Below are positions 4,694 to 59,974 of a DNA stretch of 64,000 nucleotides, piece after piece (position 1 is the first letter of the stretch; each line of letters starts with the position of its first letter). The position numbers were made by a program, and so were the translations under genes. The notes under the pieces are model-generated. The model saw nothing but the letters and a program-made list of their open reading frames with translations. It was not told where the DNA came from and ran no database searches. This DNA comes from Flammeovirgaceae bacterium BBD 1991-12 (GTDB lineage Bacteria; Bacteroidota; Bacteroidia; Cytophagales; Cyclobacteriaceae): contig LYSV01000032.1 in assembly GCA_001657315.1 (NCBI GenBank), positions 1 to 64,000 on the forward strand, read 5' to 3'.

Positions 4694-5347
4694 CTAAAGT
4701 ATAGTTGTTGAAATACCTTCACCATCGTCCAGCGCCCCCACAATACGTTTCCCATGATAAGCCTGGGCGCCTATCCTTTGGTGTACCTCAGCAAGGTTTT
4801 TATCCGTCACTTTGCCGCAGGCGATCACCTCGATATCATCACCTGCCAGTGTCACAAGTGACCTGAGCAACCCACTCCCTTCCAGGGCAGTAGCCGCCTT
4901 TCCCGAGGTAAGCACGGCATGGATGTTGGCCATTTTTTTCAGTAGAACAAGCTCATTCACCGGATCACTACAGCTGTCGATGGCCTTGTGGATCGTCACC
5001 TTTAAAGAAGCAGAATGTCTTACCAGTTCAGAGATCACCTCCATATCCAGAGTCCCCTGTGCCGTACAGATACCAAAAACCACTCCCTCAACTCCTACGG
5101 ACCTGCAAAAGTCTATGTCCTTTTTCATTTGGACGATCTCTTCCCCCGAGTAAATAAAATCACCAGCCCTCGGCCGTATCATCACCCTTATGGGGATTTC
5201 CACGTGTTCGGCAGCAAGTTTGATGAGTTCATGCGAAGGGGTCAGGCCGTCCTGAACAAGGTTCGCACATAACTCAATACGGTCAGCGCCCTGCTTTTGG
5301 GCTCTCACACATTGTTCAAGGGTTTCTACACAGGCTTCTTTGAGCAT
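4694..5347 (-). CDS. cutC: CutC family protein
   Basis: This 217-aa protein is a TIM-barrel CutC homologue (PF03932). Recognisable segments are ACVETLEQCVRAQKQGADRI, ELCANLVQDGLTPS, VMIRPRAGDFIYS, VGVEGVVFGICTAQGTLD, VTIHKAIDSC and LTSGKAATALEG. It is slightly shorter than the usual 240-250 aa at the C-terminus. CutC was first linked to copper tolerance in E. coli, a role later disputed. In Bacteroidota it often accompanies glycan PULs, and here it lies between the ROK kinase and GH47 genes, which suggests a sugar-metabolic role. That role is inference. Confidence 0.85.
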   Translation of the reverse strand: MLKEACVETLEQCVRAQKQGADRIELCANLVQDGLTPSHELIKLAAEHVEIPIRVMIRPRAGDFIYSGEEIVQMKKDIDFCRSVGVEGVVFGICTAQGTLDMEVISELVRHSASLKVTIHKAIDSCSDPVNELVLLKKMANIHAVLTSGKAATALEGSGLLRSLVTLAGDDIEVIACGKVTDKNLAEVHQRIGAQAYHGKRIVGALDDGEGISTTIL

Positions 5348-24341: not shown

Positions 24342-27300
24342 TTACAGTTTAAGGCTGAGATTCACTCCAAACGAGCGAGTACTTGGAGTAGTGCCATATT
24401 CAAACCCGGAGTTGCTGATTGTATACAGAGCCTCGGGATCCAGGCCGATATCATCAAGGCCGTTCTTAAAGAAAAATAAGTTGCGACCTACCAACGAGAT
24501 ACGGACACTATTGAAAGGGACGTTTGACAATAAGCGTGAAGGCAGGCTATAGCCAATAGAAACCTGCCGTAATTTGATATAAGAAGCATCAAAAATACTT
24601 TCTTCGGCTGCGTCAGCAAACTGGTTGTAATATAGATCAAGCCTTGCAAATTCCTGGTTAGGCGTATTCCCGTCGGGCCCTACTCCTCTACCCTGGATCT
24701 CGAACAGCGGGTTTTCCCGGCCTACCAGTGTATTAATGTGTTTACCAGTGGAATACGCCAGTGCATTAGTGATGGAGTATACCTCACCACCTTGTTTGAT
24801 ATCAACCAGGAAGCTAAGAGACAGGTTTTTGTAATTAAGAGTATTGGTTATTCCTCCATACCAGTCCGGGGCGAAATTACCAAGCACTTCTCTTTCTGTT
24901 GCGATCACTGGTAATCCTTCATCATCATGGACGACCTCTCCGTTCTCATTGCGTTCGAGCACAGTTCCAAAGATATCACCCACCATACCGCCCACACGAG
25001 AAATAAGGTTAGCAGAGAACCTTGCACTTTCAGAGGTCAAATTATCTATCCCCTCGGTAAGGCTTATGATCTCGTTCCTGTTCCGGGTGTAGTTTGCGAT
25101 AATATCCCAGCTAAAATCACCGATTGAAACAGGGTTTGCAGTCACCATTATCTCCAGTCCCCTGTTTTCTACCTCACCGGCATTGACCACCCTGTTTTCA
25201 TATCCCGTTGGTTTAGGTACAGCGGCGTTAAATATCTGGTCAATCGTATTTTGCTTGTAATAGGTAACATCTACTCCCAACTTCGCCTCGAAAAAGCTCA
25301 GGTCTGCCCCTATTTCAAATGACCGGGTCCTGGTAGGTGACAATGAAGGATTGGGGAAAGTAGGCTCTCCAATTTCTCCCAACGTTGCCGGGCCATTGGC
25401 ACCAATATAGGTGAAAGATTCTAACTTGTATGTTAATGCCGTACGATAGGGATCCGGGGCACCGTTTCCTCCGGATCCATAGGCCACTCTTAATTTACCA
25501 AGGGTAAAAAAAGAAGGTAAGGATACGACATCGCTAAAGGCAAAACTCAACGAACCTGAACCGTACAGGGCCGTGTTGTCGGAGGCACCCGGGTCATTTG
25601 GGTTGGTCAGTGTGGAATACCAGTCTTGTCGTATGGCTCCTTCCAGAAATAAAAACCCTTTATAATCCAAAAGGGCCGTGCCGAACAATGCATTTGTTTC
25701 TGTTTCCCTGAGTTCGTAGGTGCCAGGGTTTTGGCTGGCCATATTGTTGACAGCATGCAGCCCAACTACAATAAAGTCATTGCCGCTTACGCCAAATCGC
25801 TCTCTACTGAATTTGGTCTGTACCCCTCCAATATTTGCGCTTAATCCGAGGTCCGGGGTGATATTCTTGTTCACCATCACCAGAAAATCCAGGTTATCTT
25901 CACGGATTTCGAATATGTCCTCCCATAACGCCCCGTTTATGTTATGGGCAGTACCATCTTCTTCTATGTTGAGAAAACGGTGCGTGTAAGTATCCGTGCC
26001 ATACCTAAGCTGTAAGGTGAGCCAATCTGTAAACGCATAGCTGATCCTGGCAAATCCTATCAACCTGTTTCGCCGGTCTTCATTAACATTTTCGAAAGGT
26101 CCCCAGAAGGGATTCAGTGCAAATATGTTATCTGTCCATTGTATGGGATTACCATCTTCATCGCGAATGGCATTTCTTAACATATCCACGGAAATATTTG
26201 CTGGAATGAGAGAAAATGACTTCCCGGGGTTACTGGGATTGTCCGATAGATTAGGACGGTTGGTAGCTTCCTCCCGAATGTAGTTGGCTTTCGCCGCAAT
26301 GGTGAGTTTATCAGTAAGGTGGGCTGTGGTCACCAGGTTAACTGCACTTTTCTCATATTCTGTGTTGGGGATAATGCTTTCATTCACCACGTTGGACAGG
26401 GATAGTCTCGCGGTCACTTTTTCATTACCTCCGGTTAGCGCTAAGGTGTTTGTTAAAGTGCTGCCGGTTTCATAAAAGTTGCGGAGGTCATCATTTCCTG
26501 CCGCCGAATAAGGGCGACTGACCCCATCAAAAAAAGGTGTGAGTTCACCATCGAATCTTTCCCCCCAGCTGGCCGAATTGTCAATAGCTTCATCACGGTT
26601 GCTGGGCCTGACCCCTAACGCTCCCTGCCCATACTCCTGCTGGAACTCCGGTAGGATCAACGCATTTTCAAAAACAAAATTACCATTATACTCTACCCCA
26701 ATACCTTTTCGTGCCGTACCTTGTTTGGTGGTGATAATGATCGCGCCGTTGGCTCCACGCTCGCCAAAAAGTGTGTTGGCCGCTGCCCCTTTTAGAACAT
26801 TGATACTCTCAATGTCGTCCTGGTTTAAACTGCTGAAGCCATCGCCACTATCTCTTCCTCCAAACTGGCTTGAAGCGTTGATGTTGGTATTATCTATGGG
26901 TATACCATCGACAACGATGAGCGGCCGGTTTTCTGTCCGGGTTTCACCGGTACTTAAGCGAGCCATACCACGTATGAGAATGTTGGTAGAGCCTGCGGGT
27001 CCGGTAACCGGCGAGTTCACTTCCACTCCTGCAATTTTACCCGTAAGCTGTGAAGCGACACTGATCTCCCTTGCCTCCACAAGTTCCTCTCCCCCGATCT
27101 CAGTAGTAGAATAGCCCAACGATTTTGTTTTTTTCTCCAGACCAAAGGCGGTCACCACTATCTCTGAAAGGGTGGTGATATCCACCTCCAGGGATACGTC
27201 AATAACCGAACGCGGTCCGACTACTACTTCCTGGGTCTTGTATCCTACAAAACTAAAAGCCAGTACAGCATCACCAGAAACCGTAATAGAGTAGCCACCA

Positions 27301-27467
27301 TCAATGTCCGTGGTGGTACCATTGGTCGTACCTTTTTCAAGGATATTGACCCCGGGCAGTAAGGTCCCATCATCAGAATCTGTGACCTTACCTCTAACCG
27401 TGACCTGTGCCCATACTGAAGTACAGAGCATTCCTGTCATGATCAATAATAGTAATTGTTTTTTCAT
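24342..27467 (-). CDS. susC: SusC/RagA TonB-dependent outer membrane transporter
   Basis: This 1041-aa protein has a Sec signal peptide (MKKQLLLLIMTGMLCTSVWA), a CarboxypepD-reg-like domain (about residues 22-105, VTVRGKVTDSDDGTLLPGVN), a plug domain with LSEIVVTAFGLEKKTKSLGY and NVLKGAAANTLFGERGANGA, and a beta-barrel ending in a typical aromatic-rich outer-membrane strand (RSFGVNLSLKL). It is the first gene of the minus-strand PUL arm and should import oligosaccharides across the outer membrane with SusD. No N-terminal STN or anti-sigma-interacting domain is seen, which fits local control by the divergent DeoR regulator. Confidence 0.96.
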   Translation of the reverse strand: MKKQLLLLIMTGMLCTSVWAQVTVRGKVTDSDDGTLLPGVNILEKGTTNGTTTDIDGGYSITVSGDAVLAFSFVGYKTQEVVVGPRSVIDVSLEVDITTLSEIVVTAFGLEKKTKSLGYSTTEIGGEELVEAREISVASQLTGKIAGVEVNSPVTGPAGSTNILIRGMARLSTGETRTENRPLIVVDGIPIDNTNINASSQFGGRDSGDGFSSLNQDDIESINVLKGAAANTLFGERGANGAIIITTKQGTARKGIGVEYNGNFVFENALILPEFQQEYGQGALGVRPSNRDEAIDNSASWGERFDGELTPFFDGVSRPYSAAGNDDLRNFYETGSTLTNTLALTGGNEKVTARLSLSNVVNESIIPNTEYEKSAVNLVTTAHLTDKLTIAAKANYIREEATNRPNLSDNPSNPGKSFSLIPANISVDMLRNAIRDEDGNPIQWTDNIFALNPFWGPFENVNEDRRNRLIGFARISYAFTDWLTLQLRYGTDTYTHRFLNIEEDGTAHNINGALWEDIFEIREDNLDFLVMVNKNITPDLGLSANIGGVQTKFSRERFGVSGNDFIVVGLHAVNNMASQNPGTYELRETETNALFGTALLDYKGFLFLEGAIRQDWYSTLTNPNDPGASDNTALYGSGSLSFAFSDVVSLPSFFTLGKLRVAYGSGGNGAPDPYRTALTYKLESFTYIGANGPATLGEIGEPTFPNPSLSPTRTRSFEIGADLSFFEAKLGVDVTYYKQNTIDQIFNAAVPKPTGYENRVVNAGEVENRGLEIMVTANPVSIGDFSWDIIANYTRNRNEIISLTEGIDNLTSESARFSANLISRVGGMVGDIFGTVLERNENGEVVHDDEGLPVIATEREVLGNFAPDWYGGITNTLNYKNLSLSFLVDIKQGGEVYSITNALAYSTGKHINTLVGRENPLFEIQGRGVGPDGNTPNQEFARLDLYYNQFADAAEESIFDASYIKLRQVSIGYSLPSRLLSNVPFNSVRISLVGRNLFFFKNGLDDIGLDPEALYTISNSGFEYGTTPSTRSFGVNLSLKL

Positions 27468-27577: not shown

Positions 27578-27597
27578 CGTGCAAATACGTGCAAATA
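27578..27597. promoter_or_regulatory. Tandem CGTGCAAATA repeat, candidate operator
   Basis: Two immediately adjacent copies of CGTGCAAATA (27578-27587, 27588-27597) lie 111 nt upstream of susC and 209 nt upstream of the DeoR gene. The 10-bp period places both copies on the same DNA face, as expected for a DeoR-type protein that binds direct repeats. Assignment to the adjacent regulator is inference. Confidence 0.4.
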
Positions 27598-27805: not shown

Positions 27806-28555
27806 ATGCTAAAAGAAGAAAGGCACAATATTATCCTCGAGGAGATCAGGACCCATAATAAGGTGCACTCCTCCAAGCTGAGTCAACTGCTTAATGTGTC
27901 TGAGGATACCATACGCCGGGACCTGCGTGAACTGGCCGGAAGCGGGTACATTAAAAAGGTCCATGGTGGGGCTATGGCCAATCCCAATTCCATGGAAGTC
28001 TTCAGAACACAGGAAATATCCCGGCAACTGGAACGTGCCATTATAGCTGAAAAGGCTGCAGGGTTATTACAGAACGATCAGGTGGTATTGATGGAAGGTG
28101 AATCCACCAATCTTCTGGTGATCGATTTCATACCCGATGACATGCCGCTGACTATCTTCACCAATTCCCTTGAGCTGGCCGGCAAGCTGTTCAACTATCA
28201 GAATATAGAGACTATTTTCCTTGGCGGGCGCATTTCCCATAAATACCGTATGAGTCTTGGCATGGATGTCATCAATGCGCTGGGAGAGATCCATGCTGAT
28301 CTCTTCTTTACCGAAATATCGAGTATTCATGAAGAAATCGGAATAACCGATGGAGACCGTGAAAATGCCTATACCAAAAAGGCCATGTTCCGGTCTTCTT
28401 CTCAGGTCATAGCTATGTGCCTTTCCGATGATATCGGAACTATACAGCCATTCAAGGTGGAAAACATCAATCAGATAAATATGATCATTACCGAAGCTGA
28501 CCCTGACCATCACCTTCTGCAAAGATTCAGCAACAAAGGAGTGCAGATAGTATAA
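27806..28555 (+). CDS. DeoR/GlpR family transcriptional regulator
   Basis: This 249-aa protein has an N-terminal winged HTH (residues 3-57) with the DeoR signature HSSKLSQLLNVSEDTIRRDL, and HGG at the end of the wing. A DeoR C-terminal sugar-phosphate sensor domain follows (EKAAGLLQNDQVVLMEG, TIFTNSLELAGKL, FLGGRIS). DeoRC domains bind phosphorylated sugars, so mannose-6-phosphate or GlcNAc-6-phosphate made by the ROK kinase is a plausible inducer (inference). Its stop overlaps the following GH92 start by one base (TAATG). It likely controls both divergent arms through the 27468-27805 region. Confidence 0.92.
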   Translation: MLKEERHNIILEEIRTHNKVHSSKLSQLLNVSEDTIRRDLRELAGSGYIKKVHGGAMANPNSMEVFRTQEISRQLERAIIAEKAAGLLQNDQVVLMEGESTNLLVIDFIPDDMPLTIFTNSLELAGKLFNYQNIETIFLGGRISHKYRMSLGMDVINALGEIHADLFFTEISSIHEEIGITDGDRENAYTKKAMFRSSSQVIAMCLSDDIGTIQPFKVENINQINMIITEADPDHHLLQRFSNKGVQIV

Positions 28556-41496: not shown

Positions 41497-41958
41497 ATGA
41501 AAGCCATAAAAGACATATTGAAAGAACTATCTTTTTTCAAAGATATGTCCGGGGAAATGCTCGAATACATTGCCGGGTGCGGACAAAACATGCACTTCGC
41601 ACCCAATGAATTCATGGGTAGGGAGAATGAAGCCGCGGACTTTCTGTATGTCATCAAAAAGGGTAATGTCGCTATCCAGGTGATCCATCCGATCAAGGGG
41701 CCACTAACCATACGGACACTGGGGAGTGGCGAGCTGGCAGGGTTCAGTTGGATCATCCCCCCCTACCGCCTGCAGTTTGATATCAAGGCACTGGAGCATA
41801 CTTCGGTAGTTGCGCTTGATGGAACCTGCATACGCAAAAAATGTGAAGAAGACCATCACCTGGGCTATTTGCTGATGAAACAATCAGCCGCTATTATGAA
41901 CAAAAGATTGATTGACACCAGAATTCAACTACTGGATGTATACAGCCAAAGAGTCTGA
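41497..41958 (+). CDS. Cyclic-nucleotide-binding-domain protein of the hydrogenase operon
   Basis: This 153-aa protein is a single cNMP-binding beta-roll: LKELSFFKDMSGEMLEYIA, MGRENEAADFLYVIKKGNV, TLGSGELAGFSWIIPPYRLQ, ALEHTSVVALDG, then a helical tail. The usual phosphate-binding RxA motif of CRP is not evident, so it may not bind cAMP. It lacks a DNA-binding domain, so a role as an allosteric or assembly factor for the hydrogenase is more likely than transcription control (inference). It sits between hydB and hydG, overlapping hydG by 23 nt. Confidence 0.8.
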   Translation: MKAIKDILKELSFFKDMSGEMLEYIAGCGQNMHFAPNEFMGRENEAADFLYVIKKGNVAIQVIHPIKGPLTIRTLGSGELAGFSWIIPPYRLQFDIKALEHTSVVALDGTCIRKKCEEDHHLGYLLMKQSAAIMNKRLIDTRIQLLDVYSQRV

Positions 41959-42808
41959 GATCAAAGAGCCTATATCCTTCACGGGTAATACGTGGGTACC
42001 TGTCCCTTACCGGATCACCGGCAAGAAGACAGAAAGCAAGCATCTGCTCACCCTGACGATGGAACCTGCCGGCGAAGAGTCCATAGCTCCTATCGCAGCC
42101 GGTCAGTTCAACATGCTGTATGTTTTTGGTGTTGGTGAGATCCCCATTTCCGTTAGCAGTCTGGATACACCACATCCCACCCTGATACATACTATCCAGC
42201 AGGTGGGACCGGCTTCAAAAGCGATCAACAGCCTGGACGTGGGCGATACTATTGGCATTCGGGGTCCTTTTGGCACAGTATGGCCGGTAGGTGCTGCTGA
42301 CTCAAAGGACGTGATCATCATGGCCGGAGGTGTAGGACTATGCCCTTTACGACCTTTGATAGAAAATGTGCTAAGCGAACGTGACCGGTTTGGAGAAGTG
42401 AATATTCTTTACGGTTCACGGGAGCCGGACCGTATTATTTTCCACCAGGACATAATCGCGTGGCAGTCCGACCCCTCCATCAATTTTCACATCACCGTGG
42501 ATCATGCCTTTTCTCACTGGCGTGGTAACGTAGGTGTCGTTACACAATTGATCGACAAGGCCAGTTTTGCCCCTGACAATACCGTTGCCTTCATCTGCGG
42601 CCCGGAGGTGATGATGCGCTATGGAGCCTACGCCTGTATGGACTCCCATGTAGATGAAAGAAACATCTATCTGTCTATGGAGCGCAACATGAAATGCGCT
42701 ATTGGCTTTTGCGGGCATTGCCAGTTCGGGCCACATTTTGTGTGTAAGGAAGGGGCCGTTTTTCCCTATTCCGTTGTGAGATCCCACCTGAATATTGCTG
42801 AGCTATGA
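41936..42808 (+). CDS. hydG: Sulfhydrogenase gamma subunit (HydG-like FAD/NAD(P) oxidoreductase)
   Basis: This 290-aa protein is a ferredoxin reductase-like diaphorase. The FAD domain includes [21 protein letters not shown]. The NAD(P) domain has [19 protein letters not shown] and a [10 protein letters not shown] helix. Close to the C-terminus, [17 protein letters not shown] supplies four Cys for a [2Fe-2S] cluster, as in group 3b gamma subunits and PyrK-like proteins. It exchanges hydride with NAD(P)H. The ATG at 41936 is preferred; a TTG lies at 41912. Its stop overlaps the hydD start by 4 nt. Confidence 0.92.
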
Positions 42809-49403: not shown

Positions 49404-49976
49404 TTATACCAATCCGGCAAACCCCATAAATGCCATGCTTAGAATACCGGCAACGATCAGAGCGGCAGGTACACCTTTCATGGCAGGAGGCAATTCTGAC
49501 ATCTCCAGGTATTCTCTCAGGCTGGAGAAAAGTACAATAGCCAGCGTAAACCCCATGGCATTGGCCACGGCAAATACTACCCCTTTCATCAGGCTCAGGT
49601 CCTGCTGTATCACGAGTATGGCTACACCCAGAATAGCACAGTTGGTGGTGATCAGGGGAAGAAATACACCCAGCGCCTGATACAGATCGGGACTTACTTT
49701 TTTTATCACGATCTCAACCACCTGTACCAGAAAGGCGATAACCAGAATATAAGCTACCGTTTGCAGGTAAGTTATCTCAAAAGGTATCAGCAGGAATTTG
49801 TAGATAAGAAAAGTAACTACCGTAGCAATGGTCATCACGAAAAGCACCGCCCCGCCCATACCCAATGCGGTAGAGGTATTTTTGGATACCCCCAGGAAGG
49901 GGCAAATACCCAGAAACCTTGACAAAACGATGTTGTTAATAAAAATTGCCGATACGATGATGACGATATAATCCAT
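49404..49976 (-). CDS. rnfA: RnfA, electron transport complex subunit A
   Basis: This 190-aa protein has six membrane helices. It matches RnfA: FINNIVLSRFLGICPFLGVSKN with the Cys of the membrane-embedded iron-sulfur site, LVQVVEIVIKKVSPDLYQAL, LPLITTNCAILGVAIL with the second conserved Cys, and NAMGFTLAIVLFSSLRE. RnfA and RnfE share an inverted-topology fold and together bind an in-membrane [2Fe-2S] cluster. Last gene of the rnf operon, 176 nt after rnfE, with two hairpins between. Confidence 0.96.
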   Translation of the reverse strand: MDYIVIIVSAIFINNIVLSRFLGICPFLGVSKNTSTALGMGGAVLFVMTIATVVTFLIYKFLLIPFEITYLQTVAYILVIAFLVQVVEIVIKKVSPDLYQALGVFLPLITTNCAILGVAILVIQQDLSLMKGVVFAVANAMGFTLAIVLFSSLREYLEMSELPPAMKGVPAALIVAGILSMAFMGFAGLV

Positions 49977-50129: not shown

Positions 50130-50155
50130 ACCCTAATAACCAATAACCAACCCTA
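50130..50155. repeat. Low-complexity CCCTAATAACCAATAACCAACCC run
   Basis: The end of the rnfE-rnfA spacer, next to the rnfE stop, is a degenerate short repeat of AACCAAT/CCCTAA units. Its function is unknown. It resembles the other low-complexity spacers in this window (5365-5551 and 55090-55155) in style but not in sequence. Confidence 0.4.
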
Positions 50156-50746
50156 AACCGACTTTCTCCAATTCAGAAATCCAATGATCAATCCCAGCAC
50201 AATAAAAGCCCCAGGCGCCAGTATGAACAGGATCATCCCGTCCATTTCCATGAATTTGAATCCAAAAAGGGAAAGATTACCCAGTATTTCACGTATACCT
50301 CCCAGCAATACCAGCGCAAAGGTGAACCCCACCCCCATGCCCAGTCCGTCAATGATGGAGAACCATAGTGAATGTTTGGAGGCAAATGCTTCTGCCCTGC
50401 CCAGTACTATGCAATTGACCACGATCAGCGGAATGAAGATCCCCAACTGCTCGTGCAATGCAGGCGTAAAACCAGCCATCACAAGGTCAACCACCGTTAC
50501 AAACGATGCTATAATGACGATGAATGAAGGGATACGCACCTTCTCCGGGATGAAGCTCCGGATAAGTGAGATCACAAGGTTGGACATGACCAGTACAAAA
50601 AGGGTAGCCAGCCCCATACCCAGCCCATTGATCGCTGAAGTGGTCACCCCAAGCACGGGACAAAGCCCCAGCAATAAAACAAAGACCGGATTTTCTTTGA
50701 GTAATCCCTTGGTAAAGGTTTCTCTATAGGTTATTTCCTTCTTCAT
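50153..50746 (-). CDS. rnfE: RnfE, electron transport complex subunit E
   Basis: This protein of about 197 aa starts best at the ATG at 50746 ([20 protein letters not shown]); ATGs and a TTG upstream would enlarge the overlap with rnfG. Six membrane helices are predicted. [20 protein letters not shown] and [18 protein letters not shown] carry the conserved Cys residues that pair with RnfA. GINGLGMG-like and [20 protein letters not shown] segments are family hallmarks. It overlaps rnfG by 23 nt. Confidence 0.94.
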
Positions 50747-51386
50747 CCTTTGTCTCATTAAATGCATCAAGCGCCTGTTTCACTGCCTCACAAAACGCCC
50801 GGGAAGAAATGGTTGCTCCTGATATACCATCAACCTCACCTCCATCATTCTTTACACGCAGATCGAAGTCTTCAGCAGTTTTGCCGATAAATTGAGCGAT
50901 AAATGATTCATCCTTTATTTTTGAACCCAGCCCCGGTGTTTCCATATGGCTCACCACCTCGATATTGCGTATAACTCCCTCGTTATCGACGCCGACCATC
51001 AGCTCTATCCGGCCGCTGTATCCGTTTTCAGAGAAGGCATTAATAGCAGTAACCTGCTGATCATTACTCAGCTTTGCCGGATAAAAGGTAAGGATCTCCT
51101 CATTCACCGAGGCCTCAGGCTTCTCTTTCCCATGACCTTTTCTACGCCGGTGACGGAACTTCTTCCCCGCCCCCTTTTCTCTGCTAACCTCATATGACTC
51201 CTGCACCGGGTCATTTACATATTCCCCCGTGACGGACCGTATCGCCCTCTTCTGCTTTTCCGCTTTGGCTTTGGCTATGGGTTCCTTTGTTAAATTGTAA
51301 ACAAAGCCAAGGGCAAAAGCTGACCCCGCCGTGACCAGCACCAGCGTGATCAGCATATTGAAAAAAGATGATTTGCGTGTGCTCAT
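50724..51386 (-). CDS. rnfG: RnfG, FMN-binding subunit
   Basis: This 220-aa protein has one N-terminal membrane helix and a periplasmic FMN-binding domain. The flavinylation motif is [10 protein letters not shown], with the Thr that forms the phosphoester bond to [23 protein letters not shown] is the usual binding segment. An extra strongly basic stretch ([19 protein letters not shown], about residues 70-90) is not usual for the family. It overlaps rnfD by 4 nt. Confidence 0.93.
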
Positions 51387-52381
51387 GAGGTTACCGTTTT
51401 AGCGCCGTATCGTTCAGGTTTGGTATACCGGTTGATCAGGGGCACAAAGGCATTCATAATAAGAATGGCGAAGGATACCCCCTCGGGATAGCTGCCGAAC
51501 AGCCGTATCAGTACAGTGATCAGGCCTATTCCCGCACCGAAGATCAGCATACCTTTGTGGGTAAAGGGTGATGTAACATAATCCGTAGCCATGAAAACAG
51601 CCCCCAAAAGCACGCCGCCTGTTAGTAAGTGAAAAACAGGATTGGCAAATTTTTCAGGACTGAAGATCCAGAACAGGCCGGTAAGAATGAAGATCGTGGC
51701 GATCATAGATACCGGTATATGCCATGTGATGATCCTGCGGTAAAGCATGTAGATCAAACCGAGGATCAATGCAAACGCTGACATCTCCCCTATTGAGCCA
51801 CCGTGATAACCAAGGAACAGATCTGTATAGGAGGGCATCTCAGCCATCAATGAAGACATACTGCTACCCTGCCGCAGACCATCCTTAAGAATGCCCAGCG
51901 CGGTAGCTCCCGTGACACCATCTGCTATAAATGTTCCCTGTGCTGTGGGCCAGCTGGTCATCTGTACCGGAAAGGACATCAGTAAAAACACCCTTCCTAC
52001 CAGGGCGGGATTAAAAGGGTTGTTGCCCAGACCTCCAAAACTCATTTTACCAATACCCACCGCCACCGCACTACCGAGCACAACAATGTACCAGGGAAGA
52101 TTCGAGGGCACGTTGAAGGCCAGCAGTATGCCGGTGATCACCGCAGAACCGTCAGCTATTGTTGACTCCCTGCGCAGCAGATAACGGTTGATGAGTTGTT
52201 CAAACACTATACAGCTTATCACCGCCTCCACTGTAACCACCAAGGAATTTAATCCGAAAGTATAAACGGAAAACGCCAGCGCCGGAAGCATGGCATAGAT
52301 CACGCCCCGCATGATCTGGGGAACTGTCAATGCATGATGTACATGGGGTGAAGGAGATACCGTCAACAACGAAGTGCTCAT
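51383..52381 (-). CDS. rnfD: RnfD, electron transport complex subunit D
   Basis: This 332-aa membrane protein starts at the ATG at 52381 that overlaps the rnfC stop (ATGA). The longer in-frame reading from 52474 lies inside rnfC. It has about nine to ten helices, SPSPHVHHALTVPQIMRGVI at the N-terminus, GKMSFGGLGNNPFNPALVGR and DGVTGATALG with the Thr that carries covalent FMN. ATDYVTSPFTHKG and GSYPEGVSFAILIMNAFVPL are conserved late segments. RnfD and RnfG pass electrons in the membrane. Confidence 0.95.
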   Translation of the reverse strand: MSTSLLTVSPSPHVHHALTVPQIMRGVIYAMLPALAFSVYTFGLNSLVVTVEAVISCIVFEQLINRYLLRRESTIADGSAVITGILLAFNVPSNLPWYIVVLGSAVAVGIGKMSFGGLGNNPFNPALVGRVFLLMSFPVQMTSWPTAQGTFIADGVTGATALGILKDGLRQGSSMSSLMAEMPSYTDLFLGYHGGSIGEMSAFALILGLIYMLYRRIITWHIPVSMIATIFILTGLFWIFSPEKFANPVFHLLTGGVLLGAVFMATDYVTSPFTHKGMLIFGAGIGLITVLIRLFGSYPEGVSFAILIMNAFVPLINRYTKPERYGAKTVTS

Positions 52382-53715
52382 GACTTTGCTTCTTTTTTTA
52401 GTCTGGCTTTGCCAAAACGTATATAATCCAGAATGGGTCTGTTGGAAGGGCATACAAAGGAACAGGAACCACACTCCATACAGTCCAGAATATTCTCCTC
52501 TTTGGTCTTATCATTATTTTTACCTTTGGCAAGTAGCATGAGATGCAACGGTTCCAGTCCCATGGGGCAGGCCTCTATACATTTTCCGCATCTCAGGCAC
52601 TGATAAACTTCCGACCGTCTGGACTCAGCCTCCGGGATCACCAGTATCCCTGAGGTAGCCTTGGCAATGGGCACTTTCAGGTCAGCCAGGGCTTTTCCCA
52701 TCATAGGACCGCCACTGATCACCTTGCCTGTATCTTCCGGAATACCACCGGCAGCGGCTATCAGGTCGATCACCGGTGTACCTATCCTCACCAGAAAGTT
52801 GGATGGTTTTTGAATAGATTTTCCGGTCACGGTCACTACCCGCTGAATAAGAGGTTGATTTTTTTGTATCGCCAGGTAGATGGAATAAGTGGTGCCTACA
52901 TTATGGACCACGGCACCTACGTCATAGGGCAGTCCGCCGGAAGGCACCTCCCTGCCCAGCAACGCCTCAATCAGTTGCTTTTCGCCACCTTGTGGGTACT
53001 GCACTTTCAGGGCCTCCACAGAAATACCTGAAAAGTCCCGGGCAATAGTGGACAGCAATTCTACAGCATCCCGTTTGTTATTTTCTATGGCAATGATGGC
53101 GCGGTTGACTCCCAAGGCCTTCATGAGGATTTTCGTTCCCACCATGATCTCATGGGGTTTCTCCAGCATCACCCTATGGTCGGCAGTAAGGTATGGTTCA
53201 CATTCCACACCGTTGATGATCAGGGTATCAACCTTTTTCCCTTCCGGTACGGATAGTTTTACGTGGCTGGGAAAAGCAGCACCGCCTTGTCCTACTACGC
53301 CGGCCTGCATGATCTTCTCTATGATCTCTTTCGGGCTGTAAGGTATATCGGTAGCTACCTCATGGCTTCTGTCAATGCTATCCTCCCAATCGTCACCTTT
53401 CACCCGTATATTGATGGCCATGTGTTTATAACCGCTGCTGTCCATTACCGGATCGATCTTCCCCACCTTGCCGGACACCGACGAGTGGATGTTGGCGGAA
53501 ACAAAGCCCTCATGGACAGCGATCACCTGACCTGCCTTCACCATATCTCCTCTTTCCACCACGATTTTAGGAGGAGCACCTATGTGCTGATAAAGAGGGA
53601 TGATCACACTGCGCGGCATAGGCAGTTCCTCAATACCCGCTCCGGCGGAAAGCTTATTATCTTCCGGATGCACGCCACCCTTGTGGAAAGTCTTCAATCT
53701 ATTGTCAAATAGCAT
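52378..53715 (-). CDS. rnfC: RnfC, NADH-binding and 4Fe-4S subunit
   Basis: This 445-aa protein has the RnfC N-terminal barrel (FHKGGVHPEDNKLSAG), the Nqo1-like NADH/FMN fold (AGVVGQGGAAFPSHVKLSVP, INGVECEPYLTADHRVM, YPQGGEKQLIEALLGREVP), an SLBB-like region and two [4Fe-4S] motifs near the C-terminus (CLRCGKCIEACPMGLEP and CMECGSCSFVCPSNRPI). It takes up or delivers electrons to NAD. It overlaps the rnfB stop by 11 nt. Confidence 0.95.
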   Translation of the reverse strand: MLFDNRLKTFHKGGVHPEDNKLSAGAGIEELPMPRSVIIPLYQHIGAPPKIVVERGDMVKAGQVIAVHEGFVSANIHSSVSGKVGKIDPVMDSSGYKHMAINIRVKGDDWEDSIDRSHEVATDIPYSPKEIIEKIMQAGVVGQGGAAFPSHVKLSVPEGKKVDTLIINGVECEPYLTADHRVMLEKPHEIMVGTKILMKALGVNRAIIAIENNKRDAVELLSTIARDFSGISVEALKVQYPQGGEKQLIEALLGREVPSGGLPYDVGAVVHNVGTTYSIYLAIQKNQPLIQRVVTVTGKSIQKPSNFLVRIGTPVIDLIAAAGGIPEDTGKVISGGPMMGKALADLKVPIAKATSGILVIPEAESRRSEVYQCLRCGKCIEACPMGLEPLHLMLLAKGKNNDKTKEENILDCMECGSCSFVCPSNRPILDYIRFGKARLKKEAKS

Positions 53716-54672
53716 CTTTTTCAGATTTGGTGACTGATGCTTCAGCGGTTTTCTCCGATCTGGCCGCCTGCCTTTTCTTTTCTTTCTCCTCTTTTTCTTT
53801 TTCCAGCTTTTTACGCTGACGTTCGATCAGCTTATCCAATGTCTTCGCCGGTACGTTATCTGCTTTTATATTTTCAGAGTCGCAGACAATCACACATTTG
53901 GCGCACAACGTGCACTTTTCAAAATCAATGATAGCCAGGTTATTTTCTACCAAAATGGCGTCGTACTTGCATTCTTCGAGGCATTTTGCACAGCCGGTAC
54001 AGGCCACAGAGCATTCCTGCCTTGCCACTCCGGATTTTTCCTCATTCTTACAGGCTACATAGATACGCTGTGATTTTCTGCCTACCGGCCATAGCTCTAT
54101 AATGTCTTTCGGGCAGGCTTTTACGCAGGCGTTGCAGGCCGTACACTTATCCTCGATCACAACGGGCAGACCTGTTTTTTCATCCATGTACATGGCCTCG
54201 AAATCGCAGGCCTCCACGCATTCGCCCAGTCCAACACATCCGTAGGCACATCCGTGATCACCACTGTACAGCTCCGATGCTATGGTACAATTGGCCGCTC
54301 CATCACTCCATCATAAACGCTGGTCTGCTTTCGGTGCTCAAAAGAGCCTGAGCATCTCACAATAGCCACATAAGGATCACGTTCCTGTACCTCCTTACCC
54401 AGTATTTCGGCCACCTCCTTCATCACCTCATTGCCACCAACAGGACAATGGAACGGGGAGAGATCATCCGCCTTCACCAGGGCATCTGCAAAAGCGCTGC
54501 AACCAGGTAAACCACACCCGCCACAATTGGTATTGGGAAGTGCCTCGAGTACTTTAGGCAGCCTGGGGTCTTCCTTTACCCTGAACTTCCTCGAAACAAT
54601 AAAGAGGATCACAGCTGCTATGGCGCCCAGTGAAACAAGGATCAATACGGTAGCGATGACAGCTTCATTCAT
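53705..54672 (-). pseudogene. rnfB: rnfB, split by an 8-bp tandem duplication
   Basis: The 5' part (54280-54672, 130 aa) has the membrane anchor, a linker and the N-terminal cluster CGGCGLPGC (Cys50, 53, 58) with Cys75, then stops shortly after VYDG. The 3' part (53705-54217 and upstream in frame) continues AANCTIASELYSGDHGCAYG and CVGLGECVEACDFEAMYMD, then polyferredoxin motifs CTACNACVKACP, CTGCAKCLEECK and CTLCAKCVIVC. An exact duplication of TGATGGAG (54298-54313) sits at the break. Removing one copy leaves 960 nt, exactly 320 codons, and the joined protein matches RnfB throughout. As written, full-length RnfB is not made. A separate internal start for the 3' half is possible but would lack the anchor and first cluster. 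Confidence 0.9.
54298..54313. repeat. Exact 8-bp tandem duplication inside rnfB
   Basis: On the plus strand CTCCATCA is present twice in tandem (54298-54305 and 54306-54313). It causes the rnfB frameshift. Such duplications can be lost by slippage, so the lesion could be reversible. Confidence 0.9.
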
Positions 54673-55082
54673 AACCTCGACACTTTAAGATTCAACTGTG
54701 ATTTTAACTGTTTTCTGTAACGCGAAAGAGTCAGAAAATAAGGAGGCAGTACCAGCAGCGAAAACAGGCCGGACCATTGCTCCGCAATACCCAACAGCGC
54801 CCCACCAATGAGGATAATGAGTATTAGCAAGAACGGAAATAAATAGGCCCAGAAAAGGGCCTTGAATCCGACATGAGGACTGATCTCCAAAGTAACTCTG
54901 TCTCCCACTTTCAGATTTTCGACAGGTATTTCAAATCGGGCGCGCTCTTCATCAGTGACGCCGCAGAAATACTTCATACGGCAGCTATGACATTCTTCCT
55001 GTTGCATAAGTTGCACTATGGCCTGGTCACCCTGATGGTGGGTAACAGTCCCGATGTGTGATATATGATCAACTGATGTCAT
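54669..55082 (-). CDS. rseC: RseC/SoxR-reducing-system family membrane protein
   Basis: This protein of about 137 aa (ATG at 55082; a TTG at 55100 is less likely) matches RseC/MucC: an N-terminal domain with GDQAIVQLMQQEECHSC and CHSCRMKYFCG, a strand segment LKVGDRVTLEISPHVG, then two membrane helices. In many bacteria rseC lies beside rnf genes and supports flavin delivery or SoxR reduction. It overlaps rnfB by 4 nt (ATGA) and is the first gene of the rnf block proper. Confidence 0.88.
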   Translation of the reverse strand: MTSVDHISHIGTVTHHQGDQAIVQLMQQEECHSCRMKYFCGVTDEERARFEIPVENLKVGDRVTLEISPHVGFKALFWAYLFPFLLILIILIGGALLGIAEQWSGLFSLLVLPPYFLTLSRYRKQLKSQLNLKVSRL

Positions 55083-55089
55083 TTGCTGT

Positions 55090-55155
55090 TCTATGTTCAA
55101 CGTTTAAGGTTCAACGTTGCAAGCATCAATTAACATTGAACTCTAAACTTCGAAC
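55090..55155. repeat. Degenerate GTTCAACGTT repeat run
   Basis: The spacer between rseC and the flavodoxin gene contains TTCAACGTT twice in direct orientation within about 25 nt, plus diverged inverted versions (CATTGAACTC, CGAACGTTAAAC). It is low-complexity and could fold, but no function is apparent. Confidence 0.45.
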
Positions 55156-55161
55156 GTTAAA

Positions 55162-55677
55162 CTATTCTCCAAAGCCTTCTTCCTTTAGCTGTGCCACCCA
55201 CATTTGTATCCTTTCTTCAGTAAGGTCTTTTTGATTATCTTCATCGATCACAAGCCCGAGGAATTTACCATCTACAATGCCCTTGGATTCTTCAAAATCA
55301 TAGCCATCGGTAGGCCAGGCACCCACAAATTTTGCCCCGGAATCCACTATTCGTTCATGGATGATGCCAGGTGCATCGATAAAGGTATCGGGATAGCCAT
55401 CGGCATCTCCCAGGTTAAGGTAGGTTACCATTTTACCGTTATAGTCTACATCTTCGATCTCGTCGATAAAGGAGTCCCAGTCCTCCTGGAGCTCGCCGAT
55501 CTCCCATGTGGGGCAGGCCAGGATCAGGTAGTCATATTCGGCCATATCATCTGAAGTGGCCGAATTCACGTTGTGCAAAGCCACAACGTCCTCACCACCA
55601 AAGACCTCCTGTATCCGGGTAGAAACCCTTTCAGTATTACCGTCAGTAGATCCGTAGAAAATTCCAATTTTTGCCAT
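55162..55677 (-). CDS. Long-chain flavodoxin
   Basis: This 171-aa protein has the FMN phosphate loop IFYGSTDGNTERVS, the isoalloxazine loops ACPTWEIGELQEDW and NLGDADGYPDTF, and a long-chain insertion around the last strand (AWPTDGYDFEESKGIVDG). Flavodoxins carry single electrons at low potential in place of ferredoxin. It lies between the DHOD-like gene and rseC-rnf, two genes downstream of a PFOR that lacks its ferredoxin domain, so it is a likely direct acceptor for PFOR and a donor to Rnf (inference). Confidence 0.95.
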   Translation of the reverse strand: MAKIGIFYGSTDGNTERVSTRIQEVFGGEDVVALHNVNSATSDDMAEYDYLILACPTWEIGELQEDWDSFIDEIEDVDYNGKMVTYLNLGDADGYPDTFIDAPGIIHERIVDSGAKFVGAWPTDGYDFEESKGIVDGKFLGLVIDEDNQKDLTEERIQMWVAQLKEEGFGE

Positions 55678-55695: not shown

Positions 55696-56724
55696 TTATA
55701 GAAAATCATCACCATCCTTAGGGTGATACTGCATGAATAATTCTGATTTCATTAATATGTCCACATACTGCGCCCGCTTGTAGGCAAAGGGGTCAGTGAG
55801 GTTGGACTTTGCCAGCTTACCCTTGAAGTCGGATAATTGTTTGTATCCTTTGGACTCCATCCATTGGGTCATTTCTTCCAGCATGTGTGTGATATGTGAA
55901 ATACCCTTGTTGTAGATAGCGCTTACCACCTGCACCGTATCCGCCCCCGCCATGATCATCTTCAGAGCGTCCTCGCCGGTCATGATGCCGGTATTGCTGC
56001 ACAGGGTACCCCTGACATTACCGAAAAGCAGTCCTGCATATCTCAGAGCGAGACGATGATCTTTGGAAGAACTGAAATTATAGGGAAAATGATGCTCCTC
56101 CTTCTCCAGGTCAATATCGGGTTGGAATAACCGGTTGAACAGCACAAAGCCATCGGCTCCCACCTCATCCATCTGTGCAATCACGCTGAGGGTATTGGTG
56201 TAGTAAGGGCTAAGCTTAACAGAAACCGGGATCTTCACAGCTTCCTTTACGCGTTTCAGTACATTGACCTGGTCACCGGTAATACTCGCACCGGTCTTCT
56301 TCGGGTCGATCACGTTGGCATAGAAGTTCAGCTCCAGCGCATCTATACCGGTATCCGCCATTTTGACAGCATACTCTTCCCATGTTTCCTCATAGACACA
56401 GTTGAGACTTCCGATAATGGGGATGTTCAGTGACTCCTTGATACGTTTCAGCTTTAGCAAATGCTCATTCGGGCCTGCGTGCCCCAGTTTTGGAAAAATA
56501 GAAGCATGTTCGGCATCCCAGTCTTCGTAGAGGCCTGTCTCTTCTTCCATCGCGTAGGATTCCAGCTGGATCTGCTCTTCAAACAGCGACTTGTATACGA
56601 TCGCTGCTGCACCGGCTTCCTCCAGCTTGATCAGATTGCTCATATCCGTGACCAGATTGCTGGCGCCAATTACCAGTGGATTCTTTACCGGTATGCCCAG
56701 ATAGGAAGTTTTCAGGTCAATCAT
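55696..56724 (-). CDS. Dihydroorotate dehydrogenase-like flavoprotein
   Basis: This protein of about 342 aa is a DHOD-fold TIM barrel: LKTSYLGIPVKNPLVIGASN, AAAIVYKSLFEEQIQ, IIGSLNCVYEETWEEYAV, ALELNFYANVID, VKLSPYYTN, DGFVLFNRLFQPDIDLE and FMN-phosphate segment GADTVQVVSAIY. It occurs next to PFOR genes in many Bacteroidota. Pyrimidine synthesis is unlikely to be its role; an electron-transfer or dehydrogenase function tied to PFOR is probable. The ATG at 56724 overlaps the PFOR stop by 8 nt; an ATG at 56736 would add four residues. Confidence 0.85.
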   Translation of the reverse strand: MIDLKTSYLGIPVKNPLVIGASNLVTDMSNLIKLEEAGAAAIVYKSLFEEQIQLESYAMEEETGLYEDWDAEHASIFPKLGHAGPNEHLLKLKRIKESLNIPIIGSLNCVYEETWEEYAVKMADTGIDALELNFYANVIDPKKTGASITGDQVNVLKRVKEAVKIPVSVKLSPYYTNTLSVIAQMDEVGADGFVLFNRLFQPDIDLEKEEHHFPYNFSSSKDHRLALRYAGLLFGNVRGTLCSNTGIMTGEDALKMIMAGADTVQVVSAIYNKGISHITHMLEEMTQWMESKGYKQLSDFKGKLAKSNLTDPFAYKRAQYVDILMKSELFMQYHPKDGDDFL

Positions 56725-59700
56725 TGATGGCTTCATTTAAAGGTTCTTCTTTGCTTTTATCTTCAGTACTGCTCTGGCCAAGGTGCCGTAGGTCATCAAA
56801 CCTCAATTTGTTATCCTCTTTCGCCAGGTTGATCAATCGCTCGGCTTCCTCCGGGTTGGCCCGCATAAGTGAGCGGTAGCGGATCTCTTCTTCCACGTAA
56901 TTTCCAAAGTCGGTCTCTACAGCAGGAGAATCCCAGTGGAAAGGGTCCTGGCCCTGCGCTCTCAGGTCCGGATTGAACCTGTACATAGGCCAGTAGCCTG
57001 ATTTTGATGCCCGCTCAGATTGTTTTTTGGCTTGCTGCAGATTGTATCCATGAGCAATACATGGTGAGTAGGCAATGATCAAGGATGGTCCATTGTGTTT
57101 TTCCGCCTCCACTATGGCCCGGGCCGATTGTTCCCGATCCATGCCCATGTTCACAGAGGCAACATAGGCATTCCCATAAGAGGCCATCATCAGCCCCAGG
57201 TTCTTCTTACCCAGTTTTTTTCCATCGGAAGCGAACTTGGCTATTGCCCCTCTCGGAGTAGCCTTGGAGGATTGCCCTCCGGTGTTGGAGTATACCTCGG
57301 TATCCAGTACCAGCAGATTAATATTCTTATCAGAAGCCATCACATGATCCAGACCGCTGAAGCCGATATCATAGGCCCAGCCATCCCCTCCGATGATCCA
57401 GACTGATTTGTCTACCAGGTAATCCTGTAGTTCTATGACCTTCTCCAAAACGGGCTTCAGGTTTTTGTCAGCTTCCTTCAGTGCTCCCGGAAGCAGTTTC
57501 TTCACCTCATCAGCATGGGTCTTTGCTTCAGTGGTTACCTCATCCCAGAGATCAAGTGATCTTTTCAACGCTTTGGCGAGTTTTGTGGATTTAGTCTGTT
57601 CCAACCACGATTCAATATTGGTTTTGAGTTGCTTTCTGTTGGCGTCAATGGCCAGTCGCATACCAAAACCGTATTCTGCGTTATCCTCAAAGAGTGAATT
57701 GGCCCAAGCAGGTCCGCGTCCGTTGCTATCCTTAGAGTAAGGCGTTGAAGGGAACGTACCGCCATAGATGGACGAGCAACCGGTGGCATTGGCGATGAGC
57801 ATTCGGTCGCCAAACAGTTGTGTGGCCAGGTGGATATAGGGGGTTTCTCCACAACCTGAACAGCATCCGGGATATTCAAAATAAGGCTCTTCTGTATTAA
57901 ACTCGGGCACAAAATCAAGTTTTGCTGCCCACTTGGCGGGATTACCCGGCCTGCCTCTTTTCTCCAGCTTTTTCGTAGCGGTAGGGATAGTTCCGTTCAG
58001 CGACATCATGGAAACAGGCACCACATCACCTTTCAGCCGCAGCACGGGATCCATTACTTTCTCTGCAAAATCTCCGGAACCTGCGGGTACCACATCCTGC
58101 ATATTGGCATGTTTTTCCTCTTTGGCGGGCACAGGTACTTCTATCACTGCGTCAACTGCTGCATCGATGGCCTGCCAGTTCATCTCTACAATCTCCTGCC
58201 CCTTGCGCTTGAATTGTTTTTCAATGTACTGCTTGATCAGCGCTATGGCTTCGTCTTCGGGCAGTACTCCCGAAAGCTTGAAGAAGGCCGTTTGCATGAC
58301 ACTATTGATCCGGCCTCCAAGGCCTACGCTCTTGGCTATTTTCGCGGCGTCAATGGCATAAACCCTGATCTTTTTCTCACGTATGGTTTTTTGCATATCC
58401 TCGGTGAACAATCCAAAGATCTTTTCTGGTTTCTGGCTACTATTGATCAGAAAAGTACCTCCTTCGGTGATACCCTCAAGAATATCGTACTTACCGATAT
58501 ACTGAGGCCGGTGCAGTGCGATGAATTCTGCCTTGGTCAGGAGGTATTCAGACTTAATCCTTTCCTTGCCAAACCGTAGGTGGGACACGGTGTAACCGCC
58601 CGATTTATTGGAATCATACTGGAAATAGCCCTGTACAAACTGATCAGTGCTCTGACCTATGATCATAATCGAGTTCTTATTGGCAGATACCGTTCCATCG
58701 GATCCGTACCCCCAGAACTTACATCGGATAATGCCTTCCTGCTCCGTATCTATTTCCTCTTTGACCGGGATGGAAAGATGGGTGACGTCATCATTGATAC
58801 CCACGGTGAAACCGTGCCAGCCGTCATTGTCCAGATGATCGAACACAGCCTTGACCATCGATGGCGTAAATTCCTTGGAAGAAAGTCCGTACCTTCCACC
58901 AATGATCTCCACGTCGGCCTTTCCCTTGAAGGTGGATACAACATCCAGATACAGAGGCTCTCCGGTAGCTCCGGGTTCCTTGGTACGATCAAGCACGGCA
59001 ATTTTTTTGACGGACTCCGGTATTTTGTTCAGAAATGCTCCCACCGAAAACGGTCTGTAAAGCCTCACCTTCAGAAGCCCAACCTTTTCTCCCTTGTTAT
59101 TCAGGTAGTTCACCGTTTCTTCTGCCGTTTCCATACCGGACCCCATACCTATAATGATCTTTTCGGCCTTAGGATCACCCACATACTGGAACAGCTCGTA
59201 CTTTCTGCCAGTCTTTTTGTAGAAAAGGTCCATGTACTCCTGCACAATGGAAGAGCATTCCTGATAATATTTATTTACTGTCTCCCTCCCCTGGAAGTAC
59301 ACATCAGGGTTTTGAGCACCTACCTTACACACCGGATTTTCGGGCTTTAATGCCTGATCCCTGAAGGCCTCCACATATTTCATATCCAGCATTTCATGCA
59401 ATGTATCATAATCCAGTGCTTCTATCTTTTGCATGGAATGTGAGGTACGGAAACCATCGAAGAAATGTATAAACGGGATACCAGACTTCAGAGCCGCCAG
59501 GTGCGCAATAGCTGCCAGATCCTGGGCTTCCTGCACATCACCGGAGGATAGCAAGGCAAAACCGGTACTGCGGGTGGCCATTACATCCGAGTGATCTCCG
59601 AAAATAGACAGCGACTGCGCCGCAATGGAGCGTGCAGAAACATGAAATACGGTCGGCTGCATTTCTCCGGCAATCTTAAACATATTAGGGATCATCAAAA

Positions 59701-59974
59701 GCAACCCCTGGGATGCGGTAAAAGTAGTGGCCATGGCACCACCGGACAGCACACCATGGATAGCTCCAGCTGCGCCTGCCTCAGACTGCATTTGTATCAC
59801 TTCCACCCGCTCACCAAACAGATTCTTCTTTCCCGCGGCGGACCACGCATCTGCCTTCTCACCCATATCCGAAGAAGGCGTTATCGGATATATAGCAGCA
59901 ACTTCGCTGAAGGCATAGGCCATATTCGAAGCTGCAGTGTTCCCATCCGTTGTAATGTATCGGGCGTTCTTCAT
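56717..59974 (-). CDS. nifJ: Pyruvate:ferredoxin (flavodoxin) oxidoreductase lacking the 2x[4Fe-4S] domain
   Basis: This 1085-aa protein is a homodimeric NifJ-type PFOR. N-terminal TDGNTAASNMAYAFSEVAAI and YPITPSS, FIHFFDGFRTSH, LKVRLYRPFS, IGGRYGLSSKEF and NRGPAWANSLFEDNAEYG-like segments span the pyruvate, CoA and TPP domains. The proximal cluster Cys residues are present in GCCSGCGETPY (705, 708), NATGC (733) and SPCIAHG (972). The domain that normally carries two CxxCxxCxxxCP clusters between GTIPTATKKLEKRG (661-674) and the CSGCGETPY block is missing, about 100 residues, replaced by a 25-residue linker. Usual length is about 1170-1200 aa. It heads the redox operon. Confidence 0.93.
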   Translation of the reverse strand: MKNARYITTDGNTAASNMAYAFSEVAAIYPITPSSDMGEKADAWSAAGKKNLFGERVEVIQMQSEAGAAGAIHGVLSGGAMATTFTASQGLLLMIPNMFKIAGEMQPTVFHVSARSIAAQSLSIFGDHSDVMATRSTGFALLSSGDVQEAQDLAAIAHLAALKSGIPFIHFFDGFRTSHSMQKIEALDYDTLHEMLDMKYVEAFRDQALKPENPVCKVGAQNPDVYFQGRETVNKYYQECSSIVQEYMDLFYKKTGRKYELFQYVGDPKAEKIIIGMGSGMETAEETVNYLNNKGEKVGLLKVRLYRPFSVGAFLNKIPESVKKIAVLDRTKEPGATGEPLYLDVVSTFKGKADVEIIGGRYGLSSKEFTPSMVKAVFDHLDNDGWHGFTVGINDDVTHLSIPVKEEIDTEQEGIIRCKFWGYGSDGTVSANKNSIMIIGQSTDQFVQGYFQYDSNKSGGYTVSHLRFGKERIKSEYLLTKAEFIALHRPQYIGKYDILEGITEGGTFLINSSQKPEKIFGLFTEDMQKTIREKKIRVYAIDAAKIAKSVGLGGRINSVMQTAFFKLSGVLPEDEAIALIKQYIEKQFKRKGQEIVEMNWQAIDAAVDAVIEVPVPAKEEKHANMQDVVPAGSGDFAEKVMDPVLRLKGDVVPVSMMSLNGTIPTATKKLEKRGRPGNPAKWAAKLDFVPEFNTEEPYFEYPGCCSGCGETPYIHLATQLFGDRMLIANATGCSSIYGGTFPSTPYSKDSNGRGPAWANSLFEDNAEYGFGMRLAIDANRKQLKTNIESWLEQTKSTKLAKALKRSLDLWDEVTTEAKTHADEVKKLLPGALKEADKNLKPVLEKVIELQDYLVDKSVWIIGGDGWAYDIGFSGLDHVMASDKNINLLVLDTEVYSNTGGQSSKATPRGAIAKFASDGKKLGKKNLGLMMASYGNAYVASVNMGMDREQSARAIVEAEKHNGPSLIIAYSPCIAHGYNLQQAKKQSERASKSGYWPMYRFNPDLRAQGQDPFHWDSPAVETDFGNYVEEEIRYRSLMRANPEEAERLINLAKEDNKLRFDDLRHLGQSSTEDKSKEEPLNEAIND

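Follow-up and report, generated by a model that had tools for sequence, protein, structure and literature searches.

In the stretch of DNA that we analysed (the window; 64,000 nucleotides of a contig of Flammeovirgaceae bacterium BBD 1991-12), the rnfB gene is broken by an 8-bp tandem duplication that probably represents a sporadic, fairly recent frameshift inactivating RnfB. On the minus (coding) strand, TGATGGAG occurs twice head to tail at positions 54313-54298, exactly at the break in the rnfB reading frame, as the original prediction had claimed; the plus-strand form of the duplication is CTCCATCACTCCATCA at 54298-54313. No other octamer is exactly repeated in tandem anywhere in the 64-kb window. 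The 5′ piece of the gene (54280..54672, minus strand) runs from an ATG at 54672 to a TAG at 54282-54280 and codes for 130 aa that include a hydrophobic N-terminal helix, as judged by eye, and the PF04060 Fe-S motif, with the end residues past the duplication being out of frame. The 3′ piece (53705..54310, minus strand) is an open frame from 54310 to a stop at 53705 and codes for tandem 4Fe-4S ferredoxin motifs. The offset between the two frames equals the repeat length. Specifically, the whole rnfB span is 968 nt, and deletion of one copy gives the 960 nt and 320 codons that had been calculated from the sequence beforehand, a figure that counts the stop and corresponds to a protein of 319 aa.

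We took as RnfB a protein in which an N-terminal membrane helix, PF04060 and tandem 4Fe-4S ferredoxins are present in one chain, encoded within an rnfBCDGEA cluster. All of these parts are present at this locus, as is the gene cluster, but they are in two frames, and the locus is a broken rnfB and not a working RnfB. The two pieces match the family model NF005504 (293 positions) at 3-123 and 120-277, and each piece by itself scores under the curated cut-off of this model. Since the pieces abut on the model, the break does not seem to have removed any part of the protein.

The cluster is encoded on the minus strand and runs from pyruvate:ferredoxin oxidoreductase through dihydroorotate dehydrogenase-like, flavodoxin, RseC-like, rnfB, rnfC, rnfD, rnfG and rnfE to rnfA. 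The expectation that the other rnf genes are intact was borne out, with rnfC (52378..53715, TIGR01945), rnfD (51383..52381, TIGR01946), rnfG (50724..51386, TIGR01947), rnfE (50153..50770, TIGR01948) and rnfA (49404..49976, TIGR01943) all matching their NCBIfam models over nearly full length. The first 11 nt of rnfC are shared with the end of rnfB, and rnfD, whose start was set by comparison with the nearest relative (G012), has a 4-nt overlap with rnfC. Upstream of rnfB there is an RseC/MucC-like gene (54669..55100, PF04246) that is found at the same place in G012 and in two further genomes (G018 and G017), followed by the flavodoxin gene (55162..55677, TIGR01752), the dihydroorotate dehydrogenase-like gene (55696..56736, NF005741) and the pyruvate:ferredoxin (flavodoxin) oxidoreductase gene (56717..59974, TIGR02176). 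Between the flavodoxin gene and the RseC-like start, the segment at 55088-55164 has similar sequences elsewhere in the genome, with 76-81% identity, on contig C103 and, on both strands, on contig C22; it is a dispersed intergenic repeat that is partly palindromic.

We then compared the site with that of relatives, using nucleotide alignment for G012 and tblastn for G018 and G017. G012, which belongs to the same genus, has exactly 8 nt fewer at the site and an intact RnfB of 316 aa, and the 8 extra nt of the window are the lone gap in the aligned 5′ part. Among 123 loci taken for a broader tblastn comparison, four had no match (L002-L004, drawn in by the intergenic repeat, and L009, drawn in by a 29-base DNA match) and four were copies of the own locus (L001, L005, L011 and L014). 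The other 115, which include many repeat fetches of the same genome and of which the 80 named are the best 80 of 103 confirmed, all cross the duplication site in one frame. In 112 of these there is no stop anywhere in the match, and the remaining three (L047, L063 and L069) have a stop solely in the variable C-terminal tail. Because an unbroken frame spans the site in all 115 non-own loci, the single-copy form of rnfB is, judging from these comparisons, the ancestral one and the duplication is derived. The original prediction had also considered that close relatives might carry the two-copy form with a conserved separate start for the 3′ half; this was looked for, and the relatives compared are single-copy, and the 3′ frame of the window has no usable start.

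In the search across the family, which covered 196 genomes sampled from a larger group, 76 had a match. Of these, 55 non-own genomes scored at least 150 bits, and none has an rnfB split into abutting frames; one genome (G186) has one TGA inside the matched stretch. Two genomes that appeared to carry other broken copies, G079 (residues 5-71) and G213 (residues 5-99), were rejected as such because their matches stop at contig ends, with the G079 match reaching base 4996 of a 5003-base contig and the G213 match beginning at base 6. Rnf itself is patchy in the genus, an RnfB match being found in 4 of 15 genomes with the own genome included. Two of these four (G008 and G013) carry a distant RnfB with ~40% identity, and the matches in the family fall into two groups, one close (60-75%) and one distant (35-43%). 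From these identities, two Rnf types seem to circulate in the genus and family.

Both rnfB pieces are well conserved. Neither contains an internal stop, their identities to the intact G012 RnfB are 83.6% and 82.4%, and the 5′ and 3′ pieces have the same dN to G012, 0.115. This is within the range exhibited by the five intact rnf genes, which extends from 0.036 (rnfA) to 0.165 (rnfG), and the RseC-like neighbour has a dN of 0.346 that is far above that of any rnf gene. Since the two pieces equal the intact rnf genes in their conservation, the break appears to be fairly young. Synonymous sites relative to G012 are saturated for every gene but rnfE, such that dN/dS is not computable, and the break would therefore be young merely in relation to a deep split.

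Conservation of the 3′ piece would also be expected if ribosomes made full-length RnfB by shifting or hopping across the duplication, with the GGA codons at 54309 and 54301 as the matched pair. Such matched codons 8 nt apart are necessarily produced by the duplication, and the recency of the break explains the conservation of the 3′ piece without recoding. Programmed frameshifting or bypassing involves a slippery sequence or a take-off stop together with a stimulatory structure. The region where the two frames overlap is without a slippery heptamer, and in the 196 nt examined the runs of at least four equal bases comprise one TTTT and one AAAAAA, both outside the overlap. The first GGA is followed by GTG and not by a stop, and the downstream RNA folds no better than shuffled sequences (z = 0.31). 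We consequently consider recoding at this site to be extremely unlikely.

The main rival to a genuine lesion is an assembly or sequencing artefact, in which case the organism would have a single copy and its rnfB would be intact. A tandem repeat of 8 bp is in itself at chance level, with ~0.8 expected per 64 kb. It is the position of this repeat that is beyond chance, as it coincides with the frame break, with the 8-nt gap in G012 and with the boundary of the NF005504 halves. We scanned 1.56 Mb, or 18% of the genome, in 81 segments that included the window (the segment of contig 14 was all N) for exact tandem repeats that had a unit length of 6-80 bp, multiples of three excluded, and that lay at long-ORF-to-ORF junctions. 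This gave five junction repeats in 312 strand tests relative to ~2.8 expected from random positions (178/20000); a first scan of 427 kb had given the window's repeat alone. When the four other junctions were inspected by eye, without a family search, two (L158 and L183) were places where a gene ends and a new start follows, one (L182) was an ORF end before an unrelated open stretch, and one (L185) was probably a non-coding reading. The idea that the assembly is littered with such lesions was thus rejected, as by eye the window's repeat is the sole exact junction duplication that splits a gene in the 1.56 Mb, and this also argues against an artefact at rnfB. In the same 1.56 Mb there are 29 exact tandem repeats with 8-bp units relative to ~19.5 expected from base composition, and 22 with 9-bp units relative to 4.9 expected. 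A 10-bp unit is exactly repeated in tandem at a single place in the window, 27578-27597; this repeat is located between the ORFs at 24342-27467 and 27806-28555 and breaks no gene.

The draft state of the assembly (282 contigs, with gaps of 20-90 N in seven of the 81 sampled segments) is what an artefact would be at home in, as is an rnfB that is otherwise intact and under ordinary constraint. On the other side, the window is without any N, a tandem repeat of 8 bp is much shorter than a sequencing read, and a duplication of this type is not a usual sequencing error. An artefact is in our view unlikely, with a chance that is nonetheless substantial.

The length of exactly 8 bp, together with the lack of flanking microhomology at the duplication, is also what would be expected of a target-site duplication left by an excised insertion sequence, as several IS families make 8-bp duplications. 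Bacterial excision usually takes one copy away, however, and searches of the genome for IS66, IS256 (Transposase_mut) and ISL3 transposases gave 0 matches; five DDE_Tnp_1 matches are present, which might include such an element. We consider a transposon footprint quite improbable. The same lack of microhomology is slightly unusual for slippage, and it counts a little against a sporadic frameshift.

The original prediction had also raised the possibility of an on/off switch for Rnf. In such a switch, gain or loss of one copy would produce two coexisting forms that are selected by conditions. Two exact copies, of which one extra unit breaks the frame, would allow for this, as would the mild genome surplus of exact tandem repeats described above. 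Contingency loci are recognized by a repeat tract, or by a repeat that is kept in relatives. The rnfB site has two copies only and no longer tract, the insertion is seen in 0 of the 115 non-own loci, and there is no rescue signal. A respiratory subunit is also an unusual phase-variable target. A precedent exists in pneumococcal capsule genes, where in-gene tandem duplications are reported to control phase variation according to the titles of Waite 2001 and 2003 as cited in PMC4022640. A passage of that same article puts the expected reversion of insertions of up to 9 bp at no more than ~10^-5, which argues against a switch. Thus, the on/off switch is not supported and we regard it as very unlikely.

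Of the options that had been raised beforehand, a recent mutation fits best, and the assembly artefact remains beside it. A sporadic null allele is indicated by a lesion that is unique to this lineage, by the intact single-copy form in relatives and by pieces that are still conserved, as seen in a single assembly of a single genome. Under such a sporadic frameshift, one fairly recent 8-bp tandem duplication in the lineage would have placed the distal ~60% of rnfB out of frame. Translation is predicted to stop at the TAG at 54282-54280, about ten codons ahead of the first ferredoxin-motif cysteine (54250), leaving the cell, as read from the sequence, with at most a 130-residue membrane stub. 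Such a stub would be devoid of the polyferredoxin arm of RnfB, and electron entry from ferredoxin to Rnf should be lost. Expression of rnfCDGEA is probably lowered as well through coupling and polarity, since rnfC overlaps the end of rnfB and ~565 nt before rnfC would be untranslated. Collapse back to one copy by slippage would be possible, as for any short tandem duplication, but the site bears no mark of an evolved switch.

The suggestion that the 3′ half persists without its membrane anchor fared poorly. Its first standard start is a GTG at 54217, which is inside the first ferredoxin motif and past three of its cysteines, and the 3′ frame before this GTG has just an ATA at 54283 and CTG codons at 54271 and 54229. 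A split gene with a separately translated 3′ half was accordingly rejected, as no start codon is usable ahead of the first ferredoxin motif. Judging from the reading frames, we would not expect full-length RnfB to be made, and a free polyferredoxin half is likewise improbable. A second rnfB or RnfB was not found in the genome.

Loss of Rnf may be tolerated because NqrF, an NQR pump subunit, is matched over its full length on another contig of the genome. This match suggests that there is a second, NQR-type pump in the genome, with NqrF being the sole NQR subunit searched. In the window, an ORF at 41912-42808 weakly matches the NqrF reductase part (46.7 bits, under the cut-off) and is probably a different oxidoreductase. 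In Bacteroides, a passage of PMC12718326 describes Rnf as dispensable in vitro and required for gut fitness; this in vitro dispensability indicates that Rnf loss is tolerable under some conditions, and the gut requirement counts against the sporadic loss in that it carries a cost in some settings. We also considered rnfB loss as a shield from an Rnf-dependent type VI toxin and set this aside. Mutants lacking RnfB are described in that article as still toxin-susceptible, with loss of the membrane subunits leading to resistance (PMC12718326), so a shield would fit only if polarity removed the membrane subunits.

At present, the finding amounts to a single broken gene in a single draft genome, and it serves mainly as a caution that a metabolic reconstruction crediting this organism with a working Rnf may be wrong, or that the assembly may be. 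The locus would matter more if both forms occur in one population, as it would then code for a switchable energy-conserving pump. Were a switch true, a respiratory ion pump, and not a surface structure, would be phase-variable.

Among known systems, the pneumococcal capsule tandem duplications are similar in that a duplication within the frame inactivates an ORF and that reversal is possible in principle. Unlike the capsule case, rnfB shows no sign that the two forms both exist, that the lesion reverts or that it has been selected for a role. Relative to the RnfB of Cyclobacteriaceae and other Bacteroidota (RnfABCDGE, NF005504 / TIGR01944), the locus has the same gene order, both protein halves and the cysteine motifs; the difference is that these relatives have one unbroken frame across the site, whereas the rnfB of the window is broken by 8 extra nt. 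With no difference found, the locus most resembles an ordinary frameshift pseudogene or sporadic null allele, sharing with these its restriction to a single lineage, its one lesion and an otherwise intact gene.
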